This document shows positions 29,351-59,327 of a DNA stretch of 64,000 nucleotides, one piece after another. The stretch's first letter is position 1; each line of letters begins with the position of its first letter. The position numbers and the translations under genes were made by a program. Origin of the DNA: Euborellia annulipes (Eukaryota; Arthropoda; Insecta; Dermaptera; Anisolabididae); the NCBI GenBank assembly GCA_023213315.1, contig JAKCPI010004338.1, positions 29,407-93,406 on the forward strand, written 5' to 3'. The notes under the pieces were generated by a model that ran no database searches, was not told the DNA's origin, and saw only the letters and a program-made list of their open reading frames with translations.

Positions 29351-30515
29351 GTTGTCATATAATTACGGTCTTTCTCCACATTGTCTCAAAATGACTAATT
29401 TTCAAAAATCTAAAAAGAGTATCCTATACAGAACTTTGTAGAAGTAAAATTAAAATGAGCCAGTTAAACAAATAAAATAATCTATTAAATTTATTTCTAC
29501 AGTATTCTATAGTAGGCTATATCCTACCGACTCAAATGTTGAAAAGGCAAAAAAAAAGTAATCAGAATCAATAAATAACACGAATATATAATTGTATTTT
29601 TTTTATTCTTCATCAAAGGATCGGCTTTATTTATTAGTCTATTTTTTTCTATTTTCATGTAATTCTCTTTCATTAACATAATTTACATTTAAATTCAAAA
29701 GAATTATTTTTATTTAATTTAATTAGCATAGGATAAACATTTTGATGTTAAATTCCCTTAAAAAAAAGAAAGAAAGAGAGATTTACAATAAATTGAAAAC
29801 GAGAAGGACTCACCTTGAGCGAATTCCGTATTCACATACCACATACTACAGTACCCAAGGAAAGGATGTTGCTAACGGGTGTGGGTGGGTGTTTCGGGAC
29901 CAACTGTGTTCCTGGCTATTCCCTTGCTCATTTATGTATTGTGCCTCTCCCCCACCATAAGCGGACAGACATCACAAACATTAAACACACGTTTATGAAT
30001 TAAGCAAGCTTGCTTCTTGATTCAAGCACGAGGCACGTGCCACGAATCGAGGCTCGAATTACCACCACGGACCACGACGGACAATGAATGCTATTGTCTT
30101 CGGGGATATTTTATGTTCTGCCACGGACAGCCAGCCCTTCTGGAGAGGGAGGCTTTTTACCACCACGGGCACCGAATTAATTAATCCCTACTTCCTTCAA
30201 TACGAATAAATCAAATTGGAAAAATTTTACTAAACCGAAAGAAATTATTAATTTATATTTAAAATATGGCTGCTGATTGTTAATGAAATATAAATTGGTG
30301 GGGCCAACTCAAAACCAAACATCGTTCTAATTGATAGGCCTACTACAATAAAAGTTTTTAGTACGCTAATTACTTTTGTTGAATTTTTCAAAATATTTCT
30401 CTGGCTGTAAATCTTAATTAACTAAGTTGAGACCAGAGTTCAAAACGTAGAACATTGTTTCCTAATTCATATTGAAACAGTTTTGTATAAAATTTTGATT
30501 TTATACGATAATTTC
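29351..30515. other. AT-rich DNA with a GC-richer patch at 29.80-30.18 kb
   Basis: Two overlapping plus-strand ORFs (29742-29960, 29815-30003) cover the patch but show no recognised domain. ACCACCACGG occurs twice near 30061-30170. It may be a regulatory block; no gene can be supported. Confidence 0.35.
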
Positions 30516-47613: not shown

Positions 47614-49204
47614 AAAAGAAAATATTTTTTGTACTGGTGTCTGATATTGATTGAAAAAAAGTCTTCTATTTTATTTTGTCAAATAAATTTCTTTGAATTT
47701 TGCAATTCTCTAAAATCTCGTTACCCACGGTTTGAAATCAATCGCAAATAGAATAATTAAAAATGTCTACTTTATCTACAAATGATAATGATAATAGAAA
47801 ATCTTTTAATGATATTTTAATTAAAGGTTGAGCTTATGTTTGTAAAAAATGAGAGTCAAGCGAAGAGAGAACAAAAAAAAAAAAAACTTTTTTTTTTAGT
47901 CTACATGTTGTCAAATTTTTCATCTCATTTCACACCATTATTTAAACAATATTGTAATCTTTGAATGCTCTCATAAAAGAATCTGTAGCTTTTTACTTAA
48001 CCAACTGTTGCGGAAAGAGATATGTCTCAAGGCTTATTTATACTTAACTGAAGTTCAGAATTACGTCGAGAGCATCGTCTTAAGAGTATGGAGAGAAGAA
48101 GAAGAAGAGGAAGAGGCCCGAGGGTGTTTTCCTGTGTGTGCGGGAAGGGGGAGGATGTTGAACCTCCAATGTGTAATGCAGATAGGTTGCTTGTTCTCTA
48201 AACAGGGGCGTGAAGAGGAGGCTCGGGAATTTAATAAGTACGCCGCGGCGTCGGTACCCGAGAGCGTGTTTCTAAGACCGCAAAAGCTACTTGCATATTT
48301 CTATAGGAATGTTTAGTTGTGTTAGATGAGCGCCACAGGCACTATATATATATAAATCTACCCCTCACTCTTCTCCCACCCTAAAACGGAACGTGCATTA
48401 ATAAACCTGCGAGGGGGTGAAAAGATGCCAGGGGGTTGAGACCCGCGAGTTTCGGGCTACAACTAAGGTTTATCAACTGGAGAGAAACTCCTCCTAAGTG
48501 GTGGCTGAGTGTTGATATCTTCCTACTTTCTCTCTCTCTTTCCTCGTATATATATATACATACTCGTTCGTTCACTTGCGCTGTTTGAAACTTTGGAATT
48601 ATTTGTGCCTTGGCGAAAACATCCCTTTTGCTGCCATGAACTGAACAAAAGTTGGAATTAATATAAATTAATTTCAGAAACCACGCGGTGTCTTCGTAAA
48701 TGTGGGTGTGTGTGTGTGTTCCCTTGGTTTACTTGCTTGAAACCGTTCATGTGAATACATGAATTCATAAAAACTTGGATATATATTTTTGCCGACTAAG
48801 AAAAAAATCGCGAGGAAAACTCTCACTTTACGCTAACTAGATGCAATTTAATTTTTAAGCCGCATTCGTGTTTGTTTAAGTTGGAAAATGTCAAAATTTA
48901 AATTAGACATGGCCGAAAATTTCATTTGAATGCTAAAATATTTATATGAATATTTGTTTAATTAAATTTAAAGAGAAAAAAAAATAAAACGAGATAATTT
49001 ATTAGTAAGATTAAATCACAAAAGATCTCTTATTTTCACTAAAAAAAAAAAAAACAAAAAAAAACTTCTAAATGATCTCTCAATTTTTTCTCTGATCACA
49101 AAAACAATTTCAAATAAAAAAAAAATTCAAGAACAGGAAGGAACTGTTTAAAATCATGCCTAATCAGAGAGGATTAAGTAAATTATAAGTCATTTGGTAT
49201 CTTT
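47614..49204. other. unique DNA with a GC-richer core at 48.00-48.60 kb
   Basis: Mostly AT-rich, with one GC-richer unique block. (AT)n/(TATA) tracts occur at 48345-48352 and 48548-48558. A GT run occurs at 48706-48719. No element ends were recognised. Confidence 0.4.
48008..48316 (+). CDS. hypothetical 102-codon ORF, possible exon
   Basis: The frame lies in non-repetitive DNA with balanced codon use for this window. It contains a run of seven glutamates (EEEEEEE) and four cysteines. No signal peptide, membrane segment or domain is recognised. The nominal start codon is TTG, so an ATG start is not supported and it would have to be an internal exon or chance. The composition of the block makes it the better of the weak protein candidates. 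Confidence 0.15.
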   Translation: MRKEICLKAYLYLTEVQNYVESIVLRVWREEEEEEEARGCFPVCAGRGRMLNLQCVMQIGCLFSKQGREEEAREFNKYAAASVPESVFLRPQKLLAYFYRNV

Positions 49205-49207
49205 TTA

Positions 49208-49723
49208 CTTTCTCTTAGCTATGTATATATGTAATATATATATATATAGAGAGAAGAGAAAGTATTGGATTAATGTCAAGAATTCGATGTCGAGATTTTG
49301 ATGGATATACACGTTTTGAGGTTTGAATCCAAAAAAGTAGTTTTCGCAAAATGGTCTATCTGTCTGTGTGTGTGTCTGTGAACAAAATATCTCAAGAACC
49401 AAAAGAGCTATGAGGTTGGAATTTCACATTTAAGTTAGGTACCTCACTGGCACGTGACACGAAGCTTTTGGCCAAAGAGTATTAGTACTTTACTGATGTA
49501 ATTTTTCAGTTTTTTTTTTTCGATTTTCTCAAAATTTGCTTTAATTTGATTAAAATTCAAAAATCACTTATTTTTTAGAAGCTCTTTAAAATGTATATTC
49601 TCATTTTGCCATTGATATCTTCTGAAGACCACTTTACTCTTGTACTCCATAGAAAAGATAGGAGAAATGGTTGCCATGGTAACAAAATATAAATATTTTC
49701 CCATGTTTATAAATTTAACATCT
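49208..49723 (-). mobile_element. family X repeat, left part of a copy split by the hAT
   Basis: It opens TTTACTTTCTCTTAGC, followed by an AT-rich hairpin loop and GAGAAAGTATTGGATTAATG. It runs in family order to GGTTGCCATGGTAACAAAAT and CATGTTTATAAATTTAACATCT, where the 4.3 kb element is inserted. The remainder resumes at 54034. ORF 49205-49402 (-) is part of the repeat. Confidence 0.92.
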
Positions 49724-49825
49724 CAGTGGCGTACCGAGGGGGGGCGAGGGGGGCGGTCCGCCCCAGGCCCCGAGCCGGCATAGGCCCCCATATATTTATA
49801 AAAAAAAAATTTAATGAAAATTTCC

Positions 49826-50108
49826 CTTTGAAAGGCCCCGGGGCCCTCAGGGCTCAAGTAAAAATGGAAAATTTAGATAAAAAAAAAACAAAATTTAATG
49901 AAAATTTCTCTTTGAGAGGCCCCGGGGCCCTTGGGGCTCAAGTAAAAATGGGAAAATTTAGATAAAAAAAAAACAAAATTTAATGAAAATTTCTCTTTGA
50001 GAGGCCCCGGGGCCCTTGGGGCTCAAGTAAAAATGGGAAAATTTAGATAAAAAAAAACAAAATTTAATGAAAATTTCTCTTTGAGAGGCCCCAGGGCCCT
50101 TGGGGCTC
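49826..50108. repeat. 85 bp satellite, left segment (4 GC cores)
   Basis: Four copies of a unit of about 85 bp: GAGGCCCC(A/G)GGGCCC, TTGGGGCTCAAGTAAAAATG, GGAAAATTTAGATA, A8-11, CAAAATTTAATGAAAATTTC, TCTTT. The first core reads CCCTCAGGGC rather than CCCTTGGGGC, a variant otherwise found only at the far right end of the array. Minus-strand ORFs across the units (49958-50209, 51901-52221, 52238-52474) and the plus-strand ORF 49726-49965 are repeat artefacts. Confidence 0.97.
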
Positions 50109-50121
50109 AAGTAAAAATGGG

Positions 50122-51372
50122 GATGGATGGATGGATTAGATATAGGCGCGGTCTCCTCGCTTTTGAGGATCCAGGCACTTAGGCCACCAATGTGGGCCCC
50201 TTGTGCCATTTCGCCGGATCGCTACTCGATCCTTATACGCCCCCCCTCAACCAGCCCAGCCTCGCAAAGAAATCTAAAAGCCTATTGGGGGGGGATCGCA
50301 TGAATATCCTTGGGTTCCAAAATTGAACTTCCCAATGTGGATAATCTAGTTAATGTCACCGCCTGACAACTACAAATAATATGTGTTGGGGTTTCATCTT
50401 CTAATTCGCAGCCCCTACATAAGGGGCTGTCCTTTATACCTATTATTTTTAGGTGTCTATTTAGCCTACAGTGTCCTGTAATAAGTCCTACGTAGGTTGA
50501 TAACTTCTCTCTAGTTTGTTGCAGGCAAAAGCGAGCCCTCCTAGGTTCAGGCCGGAGTATGAACTCCTTGGCCTGTCTGCACCCCAAAGAGCTTCTCCAG
50601 CGCTCTGTCTGTTCTTTTATGACCAATTTGTTGGTCATATCTCTAATGGTTGAGTTTGCCAGCGGGATCGAGGGCTCAGGACCGTAGAAAGCAGTCCCCG
50701 ATCCCATCCTAGCCAGCAAATCAGCCATTTCATTGCCCTTATTGCCCTCGTGCCCTTTGACCCAAAACAGACTGACACTGTTATTTCCAACATTGGCCAG
50801 ATCGTCTAGTGCCTTGTGGCACTCAAGTGTTATTTTGGAAGAGAATTTAGCCCTTCCTATTGCTTGAATAGCAGCTCTGCTATCCGTGAAAATAAATATC
50901 GTTTTGTTTACGTATTTCCTATCGATCAGTTCCCTGGCAGCCACCTGAATACCCATTACCTCAGCCTGAAAGACTGTGGCATGCGCTCCCAGAGGCAAAC
51001 TAATGCTAAGCATTTCGCTTTCAGAGTATATACCTGATCCTGTGCCCTGTTGAGTCTTAGAGCCATCAGTGTAGACAACCACATCCCCCTCTCGGGGGTG
51101 CCCTTGGCCACTTTCTGAGGCTGTTCTGTACGTTTTCCCGAAAATATATCGCGGGGACATATAGTCGGCTTGTGCTTCTAATGAGGGACACCCCATGAAA
51201 CCTTCCCTTAGGATAATTCCGTGTCCCTTCATCATACTTTTGGACCGCCATAGCCCTAAATTTTTAAGTCTAATTGCTGTGCTCAAAGCTTCCCCTCCTG
51301 ATATGAATATCTAGAGGAGGTAGGCAGAGCACTGTTTCTATAGCTGCAGTGGGAGTCGTTTTCATTGATCCC
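50122..51372 (-). mobile_element. 5'-truncated non-LTR retrotransposon (LINE) inserted in the satellite
   Basis: The insert is flanked by a perfect 13 bp target duplication, aagtaaaaatggg (50109-50121 and 51373-51385), made from satellite sequence. On the minus strand it begins in the tail of the reverse transcriptase region (the PTAAIETVLCLPPLDIHI-like stretch, 51312-51370), continues into an RNase H domain and ends with a short 3' UTR and an (ATCC)3 tail at 50122-50136. The truncated 5' end, microsatellite 3' tail and duplication are the signature of target-primed reverse transcription. Confidence 0.93.
50282..51286 (-). pseudogene. RNase H and C-terminal zinc-knuckle-like region of a non-LTR retrotransposon ORF2 protein
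   Basis: This 334-residue frame is the C-terminal part of a LINE polyprotein whose RNase H would remove RNA from the RNA:DNA hybrid. Catalytic motifs are all present: D74 in YTDGSK, E109 in FQAEVMG, D135 in FTDSRAA, and H179/D189 in WVKGHEGNKGNEMADLLA. A C-x2-C-x8-H-x4-C cluster at C290, C293, H302, C307 follows, as in RNase H-bearing clades such as I, LOA and R1-like elements of arthropods. The nominal start is TTG, not ATG. Upstream in this frame lies a TAG at 51311-51313, while the conserved reverse transcriptase tail continues in another frame, so a small indel has broken the ORF. The reverse transcriptase and endonuclease are missing through 5' truncation. The fragment is therefore dead as an element, though the RNase H frame itself is open. 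Confidence 0.92.
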
Positions 51373-53885
51373 AAGTAAAAATGGGAAAATTTAGATAAAA
51401 AAAAAACAAAATTTAATGAAAATTTCTCTTTGAGAGGCCCCAGGACCCTTGGGGCTCAAGTAAAAATGGGAAAATTTAGATAAAAAAAAAACAAAATTTA
51501 ATGAAAATTTCTCTTTGAGAGTCCCCGGGGCCCTTGGGGCTCAAGTAAAAATGGGAAAATTTAGATAAAAAAAAACAAAATTTAATGAAAATTTCTCTTT
51601 GAGAGGCCCCGGGGCCCTTGGGGCTCAAGTAAAAATGGGAAAATTTAGATAAAAAAAAAACAAAATTTAATGAAAATTTCTCTTTGAGAGGCCCCAGGGC
51701 CCTTGGGGCTCAAGTAAAAATGGGAAAATTTAGATAAAAAAAAAAACAAAATTTAATGAAAATTTCTCTTTGAGAGGCCCCAGGGCCCTTGGGGCTCAAG
51801 TAAAAATGGGAAAATTTAGATAAAAAAAAAACAAAATTTAATGAAAATTTCTCTTTGAGAGGCCCCAGGGCCCTTGGGGCTCAAGTAAAAATGGGAAAAT
51901 TTAGATAAAAAAAAAACAAAATTTAATGAAAATTTCTCTTTGAGAGGCCCCAGGGCCCTTGGGGCTCAAGTAAAAATGGGAAAATTTAGATAAAAAAAAA
52001 CAAAATTTAATGAAAATTTCTCTTTGAGAGGCCCCAGGGCCCTTGGGGCTCAAGTAAAAATGGGAAAATTTAGATAAAAAAAAACAAAATTTAATGAAAA
52101 TTTCTCTTTGAGAGGCCCCAGGGCCCTTGGGGCTCAAGTAAAAATGGGAAAATTTAGATAAAAAAAAACAAAATTTAATGAAAATTTCTCTTTGAGAGGC
52201 CCCGGGGCCCTTGGGGCTCAAGTAAAAATGGGAAAATTTAGATAAAAAAAAAACAAAATTTAATGAAAATTTCTCTTTGAGAGGCCCCGGGGCCCTTGGG
52301 GCTCAAGTAAAAATGGGAAAATTTAGATAAAAAAAAACAAAATTTAATGAAAATTTCTCTTTGAGAGGCCCCAGGGCCCTTGGGGCTCAAGTAAAAATGG
52401 GAAAATTTAGATAAAAAAAAACAAAATTTAATGAAAATTTCTCTTTGAGAGGCCCCAGGGCCCTTGGGGCTCAAGTAAAAATGGGAAAATTTAGATAAAA
52501 AAAAAACAAAATTTAATGAAAATTTCTCTTTGAGAGGCCCCGGGGCCCTTGGGGCTCAAGTAAAAATGGGAAAATTTAGATAAAAAAAAACAAAATTTAA
52601 TGAAAATTTCTCTTTGAGAGGCCCCGGGGCCCTTGGGGCTCAAGTAAAAATGGGAAAATTTAGATAAAAAAAAAACAAAATTTAATGAAAATTTCTCTTT
52701 GAGAGGCCCCAGGGCCCTTGGGGCTCAAGTAAAAATGGGAAAATTTAGATAAAAAAAAAAACAAAATTTAATGAAAATTTCTCTTTGAGAGGCCCCAGGG
52801 CCCTTGGGGCTCAAGTAAAAATGGGAAAATTTAGATAAAAAAAAAACAAAATTTAATGAAAATTTCTCTTTGAGAGGCCCCAGGGCCCTTGGGGCTCAAG
52901 TAAAAATGGGAAAATTTAGATAAAAAAAAAACAAAATTTAATGAAAATTTCTCTTTGAGAGGCCCCAGGGCCCTTGGGGCTCAAGTAAAAATGGGAAAAT
53001 TTAGATAAAAAAAAAACAAAATTTAATGAAAATTTCTCTTTGAGAGGCCCCGGGGCCCTTGGGGCTCAAGTAAAAATGGGAAAATTTAGATAAAAAAAAA
53101 ACAAAATTTAATGAAAATTTCTCTTTGAGAGGCCCCAGGGCCCTTGGGGCTCAAGTAAAAATGGGAAAATTTAGATAAAAAAAAAACAAAATTTAATGAA
53201 AATTTCTCTTTGAGAGGCCCCGGGGCCCTTGGGGCTCAAGTAAAAATGGGAAAATTTAGATAAAAAAAAACAAAATTTAATGAAAATTTCTCTTTGAGAG
53301 GCCCCGGGGCCCTTGGGGCTCAAGTAAAAATGGGAAAATTTAGATAAAAAAAAAACAAAATTTAATGAAAATTTCTCTTTGAGAGGCCCCAGGGCCCTTG
53401 GGGCTCAAGTAAAAATGGGAAAATTTAGATAAAAAAAAAACAAAATTTAATGAAAATTTCTCTTTGAGAGGCCCCAGGGCCCTTGGGGCTCAAGTAAAAA
53501 TGGGAAAATTTAGATAAAAAAAAAACAAAATTTAATGAAAATTTCTCTTTGAGAGGCCCCAGGGCCCTTGGGGCTCAAGTAAAAATGGGAAAATTTAGAT
53601 AAAAAAAAAACAAAATTTAATGAAAATTTCTCTTTGAGAGGCCCCGGGGCCCTTGGGGCTCAAGTAAAAATGGGAAAATTTAGATAAAAAAAAAAACAAA
53701 ATTTAATGAAAATTTCTCTTTGAGAGGCCCCGGGGCCCTTGGGGCTCAAGTAAAAATGGGAAAATTTAGATAAAAAAAAAACAAAATTTAATGAAAATTT
53801 CTCTTTGAGAGGCCCCGGGGCCCTCAGGGCTCAAGTAAAAACAAAATTTAATGAAAATTTCTCTTTGAGGCCCCGGGGCCCTTGG
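51373..53885. repeat. 85 bp satellite, right segment (about 30 GC cores)
   Basis: About 30 tandem units of 83-86 bp continue the array after the LINE. Length differences are mostly in the A tract. Units differ mainly at one site (GGCCCCAGGG or GGCCCCGGGG). The last two units are shorter or aberrant: one has CCCTCAGGGC and lacks the GGGAAAATTTAGATA part, and the last runs into TTGGGGTTCAGGGATATACG. The GC core is close to a palindrome. Confidence 0.97.
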
Positions 53886-54033
53886 GGTTCAGGGATATAC
53901 GGTATTTTAAAAATATTTTTGTGTATAGAGGAGAGGGATATTTAAAGATGAGGCCCCCCCAAAAAAAAAATTCAATATAAGGCCCCCTCTTCTAGTTCCG
54001 CCCCAGGCCCCCAACTGCCTCGGTACGCCTCTG

Positions 54034-54190
54034 TAACATCTTGAAATTCGAATGTACCGAACTGTCGGAAACTAATCATATGTGGACACAAAAAATCTGG
54101 TGTGTCAAGCACAGAACACAACTTTCGATTACCCAAGGTACGAGTAAGAGAAAGTTGTATGCTGTGCGACCAGTCACACCAGATTTTTCT
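54034..54190 (-). mobile_element. family X repeat, right part of the split copy
   Basis: It continues from the duplication taacatct into TGAAATTCGAATGTACCG, AACTGTCGGAAACTAAT and the first hairpin (AATCTGGTGTGTCAAGCACA...GACCAGTCACACCAGATTTTT). It joins 49208-49723 to make one full-length copy. Both small ORFs here (53972-54226 -, 54041-54229 +) are repeat-derived. Confidence 0.92.
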
Positions 54191-55010
54191 TCTATTTATT
54201 TTAGGCAAAGGATGGGAATTTTTCAATAGAGGATAGCAACAAATAACTGGTTAGATAGGTTCTAATTTTTATTATTAGAGCTTTATAATATGGTTAAGTG
54301 GGTTTATTATTAATACTATTTTTGTTGAGAAAAATTTGTTTGCATTGAGCGCTTTATATATATTTAATTAAACGAATGAATAAAGTCTGGCTGATGGCCA
54401 AGAGTAACCTTTATTTATTTATTATCTGTTCATAAGTATTGTTTATTATTAGTCATTTAGGATGAACGAGTTGGGCAGAGGGGAGGGGGGTTATTTTAAA
54501 CATCACTATTTAATTTAATACCTCTCTCTCTCTCTCATCATTTAGCATCTGGCATATTAATTGATTAATATCGTTTATATTTACTGACTGATCCATCACT
54601 GTCCGATAGTTAAGCTCATTTATCGAATGCATTATATTATAATCCCCCCCTCCCACGACTTTACTATAGATTTAGTTTCACTAGAGGTCTATAATCGATG
54701 CCTAGATTTCTTGGACCCTTGTTTTCAGGCCAGGCTTACATGCATCACGAAGCATATACTCTGGATTAACAATAGGGCATAATACAATCAGTGTAGGCCT
54801 TGTGAATGCCCTCTGGGATTGTTTACAAACAATAACAATCGGATATGTTATTACCGGTCATCTTAAACGGCAACCAAGGTGAGGGGAGTGTTACGTTTTA
54901 AGCTAATTAATTAATAGTATATAATTTCTATAAATAACAGATTATTTTAGCGAATTTATTGAAAAAACTCACAATGATAAATATTTTGTGTCTCTATTGA
55001 AAAAAGAAAA
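54191..55010. other. unique DNA, nothing recognised
   Basis: (TC)n at 54522-54537 and a slightly GC-richer part at 54690-54900. No ORF of interest. Confidence 0.4.
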
Positions 55011-58689: not shown

Positions 58690-59327
58690 TTTTTACTTTC
58701 TCTTACCTCTATATATATGTTAATATATATATAGAGAGAAAGTATTGGATTCATGTCAAAAATTCGATGTCGAGATTTTTGATGGATATACACGTTTTGA
58801 GGTCCCCTGAATCCAAAAAAGTGGTATTCGCGACATTGTCTGTCTGTGTGTCTGTGAACAAAATATCTCAAGAACGAAACGAGCTAGGAAGTTGAAATTT
58901 TATATTTAAGTTAGGCACCCCCATGGGACGTGACACAAAACTTTTGAACAAAATCGACCAAAGAGTACTAGTACTTTACTGATGAACTTTTTCAGTTTTT
59001 TTTTATTTTCTCTAAATTCGCTCCAACGATTTTTTTTTTTAATTCATAAATCAATTATTTTTTAGCTCTTTAAAATGTATATTCTCATTTTGCCATTGAA
59101 ATCTTCTGAAGACCAATTTACTCTTGTACTCCATAGAAAAGATAGGAGAAATGGTTCCCATTGTAACAAAATATAAATATTTTCCCACGTTTATAAATTT
59201 TACATCTTGATTTAATTGTACCCTACTGTCGGAAACTAAATACATGTCGACACAAAAATCTGGTGTGACAAGCACTGAACACAACTTTCGATTATCGAAG
59301 GTACCGAAGGTCACACCAGATTTTTTC
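58690..59327 (-). mobile_element. family X repeat, full-length-like copy
   Basis: It opens TTTTACTTTCTCTTACCTC with hairpin TATATATATGTTAATATATATA and GAGAGAAAGTATTGG. It passes TCAAGAACGAAACGAGCTAG and CAAAGAGTACTAGTACTTTA and ends GTGTGACAAGCACTGAACAC...GGTCACACCAGATTTTTT. ORFs 58614-58871 and 59051-59314 (-) follow the repeat. Confidence 0.87.

Follow-up and report, generated by a model that had tools for sequence, protein, structure and literature searches.

How does a short tandem repeat come to fill a DNA transposon almost from end to end, and do such arrays travel with the transposon or grow where they are found? This question is raised by a stretch of 64,000 nucleotides from the dermapteran Euborellia annulipes (positions 29,407 to 93,406 of contig JAKCPI010004338.1, assembly GCA_023213315.1; GC content 31.5%), here called the window, in which a 4310-bp element with hAT-type ends is occupied by an array of an 85-bp satellite. 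The element lies in a copy of a repeat, family X, and its array is interrupted by a fragment of a long interspersed nuclear element (LINE); the locus is a LINE in a satellite in a hAT-like miniature inverted-repeat transposable element (MITE) in a HINE-like element. Very probably, the window element is a non-autonomous hAT MITE whose array was derived from an internal segment, moves whole with the element and afterwards changes length between fixed ends.

The window element and its satellite

An initial annotation, made from the letters of the window, had described an X copy split by a 4310-bp element with hAT-type ends and a perfect 8-bp duplication, consisting almost wholly of about 34 units of an 85-bp satellite, and this description holds. 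The element (49724..54033, plus strand) begins with the 16-bp terminal repeat CAGTGGCGTACCGAGG (49724..49739, plus strand) and ends with its counterpart CAGAGGCGTACCGAGG, read on the minus strand (54018..54033). The two are identical at 15 of 16 bases, with one mismatch, and no clear inverted repeat between the left and right sides is found inward of these first 16 bp. Short terminal inverted repeats of this type are a mark of hAT elements, and the duplication flanking the element has the 8 bp of a hAT target site: TAACATCT stands at 49716..49723 and, perfectly matched, at 54034..54041. In six aligned uninterrupted copies of X the site is present once. Together, ends and duplication indicate a hAT transposase as the motor of the element.

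Between the ends, the head-to-tail array of near-identical units that defines a satellite is divided into a first part of 3.8 units (49800..50121, plus strand; Tandem Repeats Finder, 96% matches) and a second part (51372..53889, plus strand) with 29.1 units as far as 53841 (98% matches), followed by a short diverged last unit. The period is 85 bp, and 34 unit cores were counted in total. A right body, present once per element, occupies 53890..54017 (plus strand).

A genomic family with arrays of variable length

The exact end pattern matches the genome at 4760 places and its reversed control at none, so the element is not a chance arrangement of letters. For 37 bases of the right body, allowed up to two mismatches, there are 2445 matches, again against 0 for the control. 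The initial annotation had called for other copies with the same ends and for a comparison of their arrays and duplications, and 50 complete copies could be read. These comprise the window element, 28 pairs of exact ends from the first 100 listed places (L009-L036), five of 12 loci at places that lacked an exact partner (L037-L048), 15 of 20 loci at exact right bodies (L049-L068) and locus L079, and they represent 43 distinct insertions. Twelve loci in which no second end was found within two mismatches (L038, L040, L042, L044, L045, L047, L048, L051, L059, L060, L062 and L067) were left out of the copy counts; one of them, L047, has 32 unit cores on its own. Sampling by exact ends favours young copies, and the unit numbers given are as assembled.

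The complete copies measure 269-4310 bp and contain 0-53 units, with a median of 5. In 48 of them, the window element and L039 being excluded for their inserts, length plotted on unit number fits a line with a 300-bp intercept and a slope of 67.5 bp per unit (r = 0.98). The insert of L039 is an observation of its own: in this copy of the CACAGGCT insertion the array is split by unrelated sequence with a tandem repeat, 3.5 copies of 337 bp (L039:1065-2231). The 8-bp duplication is perfect in 35 of the 50 copies and has at most one mismatch in 41; by distinct insertion the counts are 29 and 34 of 43, and shifted controls on 49 of the copies gave 0 of 392. Perfect duplications of 7 bp were seen in L014, L015, L018, L025 and L041. 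With its 2445 right bodies and 50 copies of such different lengths, the family has the many related non-coding copies of a MITE; no gene was seen in the short copies, as judged by reading and not by a scan of all copies for open reading frames.

Could wrong joins, or collapsed or inflated unit numbers, have produced this picture? The 903-Mb genome is distributed over 25,949 contigs, the number of units in an array with 98% repeat identity is hard to assemble, and the unit number itself may be off. An assembly artefact is nevertheless hardly credible as the explanation: 29 of the 43 distinct insertions have perfect duplications, which argues against it, as do the uninterrupted X copies, the close relative of the window element found elsewhere (L079) and a series of copy lengths that fits whole units.

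Origin of the satellite unit

The shortest members of the family bear on where the satellite came from. Four otherwise complete elements of 269-280 bp (L027, L028, L036 and L063) have a single unit core. By core count three copies have no unit, of which L029 is a composite of two elements; the other two, L018 and L026, have the same ends as the rest of the family and retain the unit stretch CCCTTTGAGAGGCCCCGG. Among 346 units, the spacings cluster at about 60 and at 81-86 bp, the short unit being the long one minus about 23-25 bases. Exact unit cores occur 6359 times in the genome. For 98 of the first 100 in the list an exact end is present no more than 3 kb away, the exceptions being on contigs C81 and C239.

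Complete one-unit elements, together with CCCTTTGAGAGGCCCCGG in relatives without a unit, suggest that the satellite is the element's own sequence, copied in tandem. An internal expansion of the MITE, in which a segment of about 60-85 bp became a tandem array, is likely, though not proven. The opposite course, in which the element captured a satellite already present in the genome, has been modelled for a Tc1/mariner MITE, miDNA4, by Scalvenzi and Pollet (cited after PMC12628747). It would suit an array that fills its element and a unit unlike the ends, and single-unit copies could be deletion products. Capture is, however, unlikely here, because the one-unit copies are complete elements of about 270 bp, the two unit-less copies still have part of the unit between the same ends, and nearly all of the first 100 unit cores in the list keep close to an exact end.

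Whole arrays at separate sites

If arrays are carried by the element, the same long array should be met at more than one site. L010 (contig C18, 2397 bp) and L012 (contig C20, 2402 bp) have 28 units each and agree at 2392 positions, with three mismatches and 2 and 7 unpaired bases. Their duplications, CTGTGATT and GTGATTGG, are each perfect and differ from one another, and their 300-bp flanks do not match each other at an E-value of 1e-5. Near-identical arrays with separate duplications and flanks are as expected from the transposition of a 28-unit array. Both copies also show a higher-order pattern, in which spacings of about 81-82-81-85 repeat with a period of about 329 bp.

Two 40-base markers of the L010 array occur exactly at five places (middle marker) and eight places (left marker), and both are exact only in C18 and C20; a third whole copy of the array is not shown by these two markers. 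At one mismatch they match 52 and 350 places, the second set having been judged on the first 100 of the 350 listed. Contigs C669, C1422 and C2430 have both markers at one mismatch and were rejected as further copies, since they look like ordinary unit variants.

The array of the window has a relative as well. A 40-base variant of it has 17 occurrences in the window contig, 11 in C19639 and three in C18841, and eight further contigs have one each; it was not met in the loci read before L079. This last locus, on C19639, is a copy of 1616 bp and 17 units that has the same array variant, has no LINE and sits in other flanking sequence than the window element. Over the right 230 bases it agrees with the window element at 227 of 228 aligned bases, a better match than any other of the 49 copies compared, the second best reaching 0.976; over the left 200 bases 196 of 197 agree, a value shared by L033. 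Its duplication is only 5 bp long, and its insertion is therefore less cleanly marked. On the simplest reading of these sequences, the window lineage would already have had the array variant when the two copies separated, and the LINE would be a later arrival.

An alternative is that only one- or two-unit forms transpose and that each long array grew in place. Units are, on average, more alike within elements than between them, the median copy has only five units, and copies of the same insertion mostly differ in length, all of which would suit growth in place. Against this, the 28-unit array of L010 and L012 stands nearly base for base at two sites without common flanks, and the window element and L079, again at two sites, have their edge units and array variant in common. 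As the sole process, growth in place is refuted by L010 and L012 unless that pair is an assembly error, and we regard it as very unlikely. That whole arrays disperse with the element, as the initial annotation had surmised, is supported directly by L010 and L012 and less strongly by the window element and L079. In the preferred reading, a hAT transposase acting in trans would recognise the two short ends and move all that lies between them, the array included; the movement is seen in these copies, the transposase is deduced.

Length change after insertion and probable carriage by other transposons

Within the 50 complete copies, five groups share both duplication and flanks, and each group therefore stems from one insertion. 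Unit number differs in four of them: L039, L043, L053 and L068 have 5, 5, 2 and 5 units, L033 and L054 have 14 and 9, L037 and L046 have 6 and 3, and L009 and L011 have 53 and 15, whereas L027 and L028 are unchanged at one unit each. Arrays thus change length in place after landing. Between moves they would grow and shrink while the ends stay fixed; slippage or unequal exchange between units is the probable mechanism, and long arrays would in this way acquire variants of their own.

Mean unit distance is 0.050 within elements and 0.086 between unrelated insertions, and the nearest neighbour of a unit lies in the same element in 164.9 of 346 cases, against 20.2 expected. This signal of homogenisation is carried by the longer arrays. 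In the window array the first and last measured units deviate most from the consensus (five and four differences, the inner units 0-2), as predicted by unequal exchange. Unit number does not correlate with divergence of the right body, taken as a measure of age (Spearman -0.13, p 0.39; 45 of 48 copies).

The flanks of the same-insertion groups suggest a second means of spread. L033 and L054 may be alleles: the blocks beside them are 98-100% identical and differ by insertions, and the match ends after about 0.9 kb. In L037 and L046 the common stretch starts 442 and 438 bases upstream, at CAGTGGCGTAACC, and in L053 and L068 it starts 639 and 637 bases upstream, at CATGGGCGTAACT; outside these points the sequences differ. 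Judged by these left borders, CAGTGGCGTAACC and CATGGGCGTAACT look like the ends of two further transposon-like families carrying a nested satellite MITE. The common stretch of L009 and L011 ends at GGTTGCGCCACTG, and its left border shows no clear end, which makes this third case weaker. Copies nested in other mobile elements would then be carried to new sites by their hosts. The picture goes beyond the initial annotation in three respects: the satellite resembles an internal part of the transposon more than a separate satellite, arrays continue to change length once inserted, and some appear to be carried inside other transposons.

The transposase and the evidence that weighs against the reading

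Nine hAT candidates (L069-L077) were considered as a source of transposase, L069 on both sides and the others over roughly 1 kb on the downstream side of the transposase domain. The genome is rich in hAT genes: a first look gave 843 candidates for the hAT dimerisation domain and 375 for DUF4371, 150 of each set were scored, and few of these were read. L069:124-3618 (contig C1667) is an apparently complete DUF4371 hAT element of 3.5 kb, with an open frame of 756 amino acids and an 8-bp duplication, and it is abundant; an open frame of this length is found in 24 of the 150 scored DUF4371 rows. Its ends, CATAGGCGCCGGAACT and CAGGGGCGCCGGAACG (in longer form CATAGGCGCC... and CAGGGGCGCC...), resemble those of the MITE only in parts of CANNGGCG; judged by its end sequences, it belongs to the same broad type without being the autonomous partner. 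The other eight were rejected for want of a convincing end within the stretch covered, and a 12-base end match with three mismatches in L073 and L077 was taken for chance. About ten contigs among the 150 scored dimerisation-domain candidates start 508-600 bases beyond an L069-type domain, near the end of the element, as if the assembly had broken at this repeat.

Several points weigh against the reading of the element as a hAT MITE that expands, moves and remodels its own sequence. None of the nine candidates combines a transposase gene with the CAGWGGCGTACCGAGG ends of the MITE. Nine of the 50 copies lack an 8-bp duplication at up to one mismatch: five have a perfect one of 7 bp, one has 6 bp, L079 has 5 bp, and L020 and L029 have none. 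Array lengths depend throughout on the assembly and its many contigs. The genome has 2.6 exact unit cores per right body and the 20 sampled loci have 1.15, so that satellite may also lie outside intact elements. The string GTGATT is common to CTGTGATT and GTGATTGG but stands in a different register in each, a resemblance taken for chance. In seven of the 31 elements with at least two measured units (L017, L021, L023, L024, L032, L034 and L068), units are no closer within than between elements. Expansion driven by a hairpin was considered and rejected, as the single-stranded folding of the unit is unremarkable (z -1.1, -0.8 and -0.1). Confidence in the reading is slightly lowered by two of these points, namely that homogenisation is not general and that the insertion of L079 is not cleanly marked.

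The LINE fragment, the host repeat and the order of events

The LINE fragment in the array (50122..51371, minus strand) is 1250 bp long, with its 3' end toward low coordinates. Its open frame (50285..51310, minus strand) contains an RNase H domain (PF00075, E 8.7e-16), and no reverse transcriptase is found in the 1250 bp. The best relatives of the frame are about 40% identical (no tree was built); the named ones are mostly from insects, with three from a spider, and include 'loa-3' (31%) and 'R1' (37% over half the frame). That a LINE splits the array had been noticed in the initial annotation and stands. The perfect 13-bp duplication reported with it needs qualification: the copies at 50108..50121 and 51372..51385 are 13-14 bp long, at their longest the 14 bp of CAAGTAAAAATGGG, and as this string recurs in the satellite units its perfection carries little weight and the phase alone counts. 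The phase fits and supports an ordinary insertion.

Family X, the host of the MITE, is a repeat of about 650 bp. In the window its left part spans 49207..49723 (plus strand), including the first copy of the 8-bp duplication, and its right part 54034..54190 (plus strand); coverage by other X copies goes up at 49200-49220 and drops again at 54174-54214. An uninterrupted copy with the empty site visible lies at 58712..59304 (plus strand), and the six aligned uninterrupted copies, three of them within the window, have one TACATCT-like site at the insertion point of the element. DINE-1/HINE elements, which are non-autonomous Helentrons, are described as inserting at TT without an ordinary duplication and as carrying a palindrome at the 3' end and sub-terminal inverted repeats no shorter than 11 bp (PMC4067079). 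In X, the 11-bp 5' motif ACTTTCTCTTA, at 49207, pairs at 11 of 11 bases with TAAGAGAAAGT near the 3' end, in the right part, and a hairpin is present at the 3' end. In one pair of loci, L054 filled and L078 empty, X is inserted inside a T run without an ordinary duplication. By these sequence features, X can be classed as a DINE-1/HINE-like element.

The X copy concerned, L054:1780-2478, is absent from L078, and the two stretches are otherwise 98-100% identical, which points to recent movement of X. A second difference nearby, about 1.25 kb present in L054, is bounded by a duplication of 12-13 bp.

The order of events proposed at the outset, X, then the hAT element, then the LINE, holds, since X is intact elsewhere and the array occurs without a LINE in L079. 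In the window, X would have inserted first, an array-bearing hAT copy would have entered X, and the LINE fragment would then have landed in the array.

Relation to known systems and significance

The principle of satellite-bearing MITEs is already published, which limits the surprise, and a tie between tandem arrays and hobo, an element of the hAT superfamily, is likewise on record. In the tandem expansion of hobo in Drosophila melanogaster (McGurk and Barbash, via PMC12628747), a hAT element is linked to tandem arrays as in the present family, but there up to 16 copies of the whole element stand in tandem, whereas here the unit lies inside each element. The satellite MITE miDNA4 of Xenopus tropicalis (Scalvenzi and Pollet, 2014, via PMC12628747 and PMC9659126) likewise has one monomer or a variable tandem array, for which homogenisation was proposed; it is, however, a Tc1/mariner element thought to have captured an existing tandem repeat, and the present family is hAT-like with a unit that looks like its own sequence. 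In the Xstir/Xmix MITE of Xenopus (Hikosaka and Kawahara, 2004, via PMC12628747 and PMC9659126), tandem repeats are thought to derive from internal MITE sequence, and MITE, array and composite forms are reported; the element family is another one, and a stem-loop mechanism was proposed there. Tetris of Drosophila virilis (PMC4079207) is a DNA transposon, apparently non-autonomous, with internal tandem repeats from which satellite arrays were built. It differs in being Foldback-like, with repeats of about 220 bp inside inverted repeats and longer arrays in beta-heterochromatin, against at most 53 units in the complete copies described here. The Helentrons of Crassostrea gigas (PMC7492417) resemble the present family in that short satellite-like arrays are dispersed by a non-autonomous mobile element, and differ in that the carrier is a rolling-circle and not a hAT-like one. 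MITEs containing tandem repeats are also announced by title for the clam Donax trunculus (Satovic and Plohl, 2013, via PMC12628747). No title or opening of an abstract in the literature surveyed, which under-represents subscription papers, describes a hAT MITE with this architecture, and no priority is claimed.

What stands out here is the unusually direct evidence of whole-array movement and of later length change. The origin and spread of satellites are usually inferred from static arrays. One array standing at two sites, each with its own duplication, and one insertion found with differing array lengths make movement and length change separable and measurable across many copies. On balance, we incline to the broader view that long arrays are active cargo, that at least 28 units can be moved intact by cut-and-paste hAT transposition and spread further by other transposons, and that each landing would set off growth and homogenisation that run independently and can be dated. 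If this is true, the genome of E. annulipes would hold thousands of parallel natural replicates of the birth of a satellite, each stamped by its target-site duplication.

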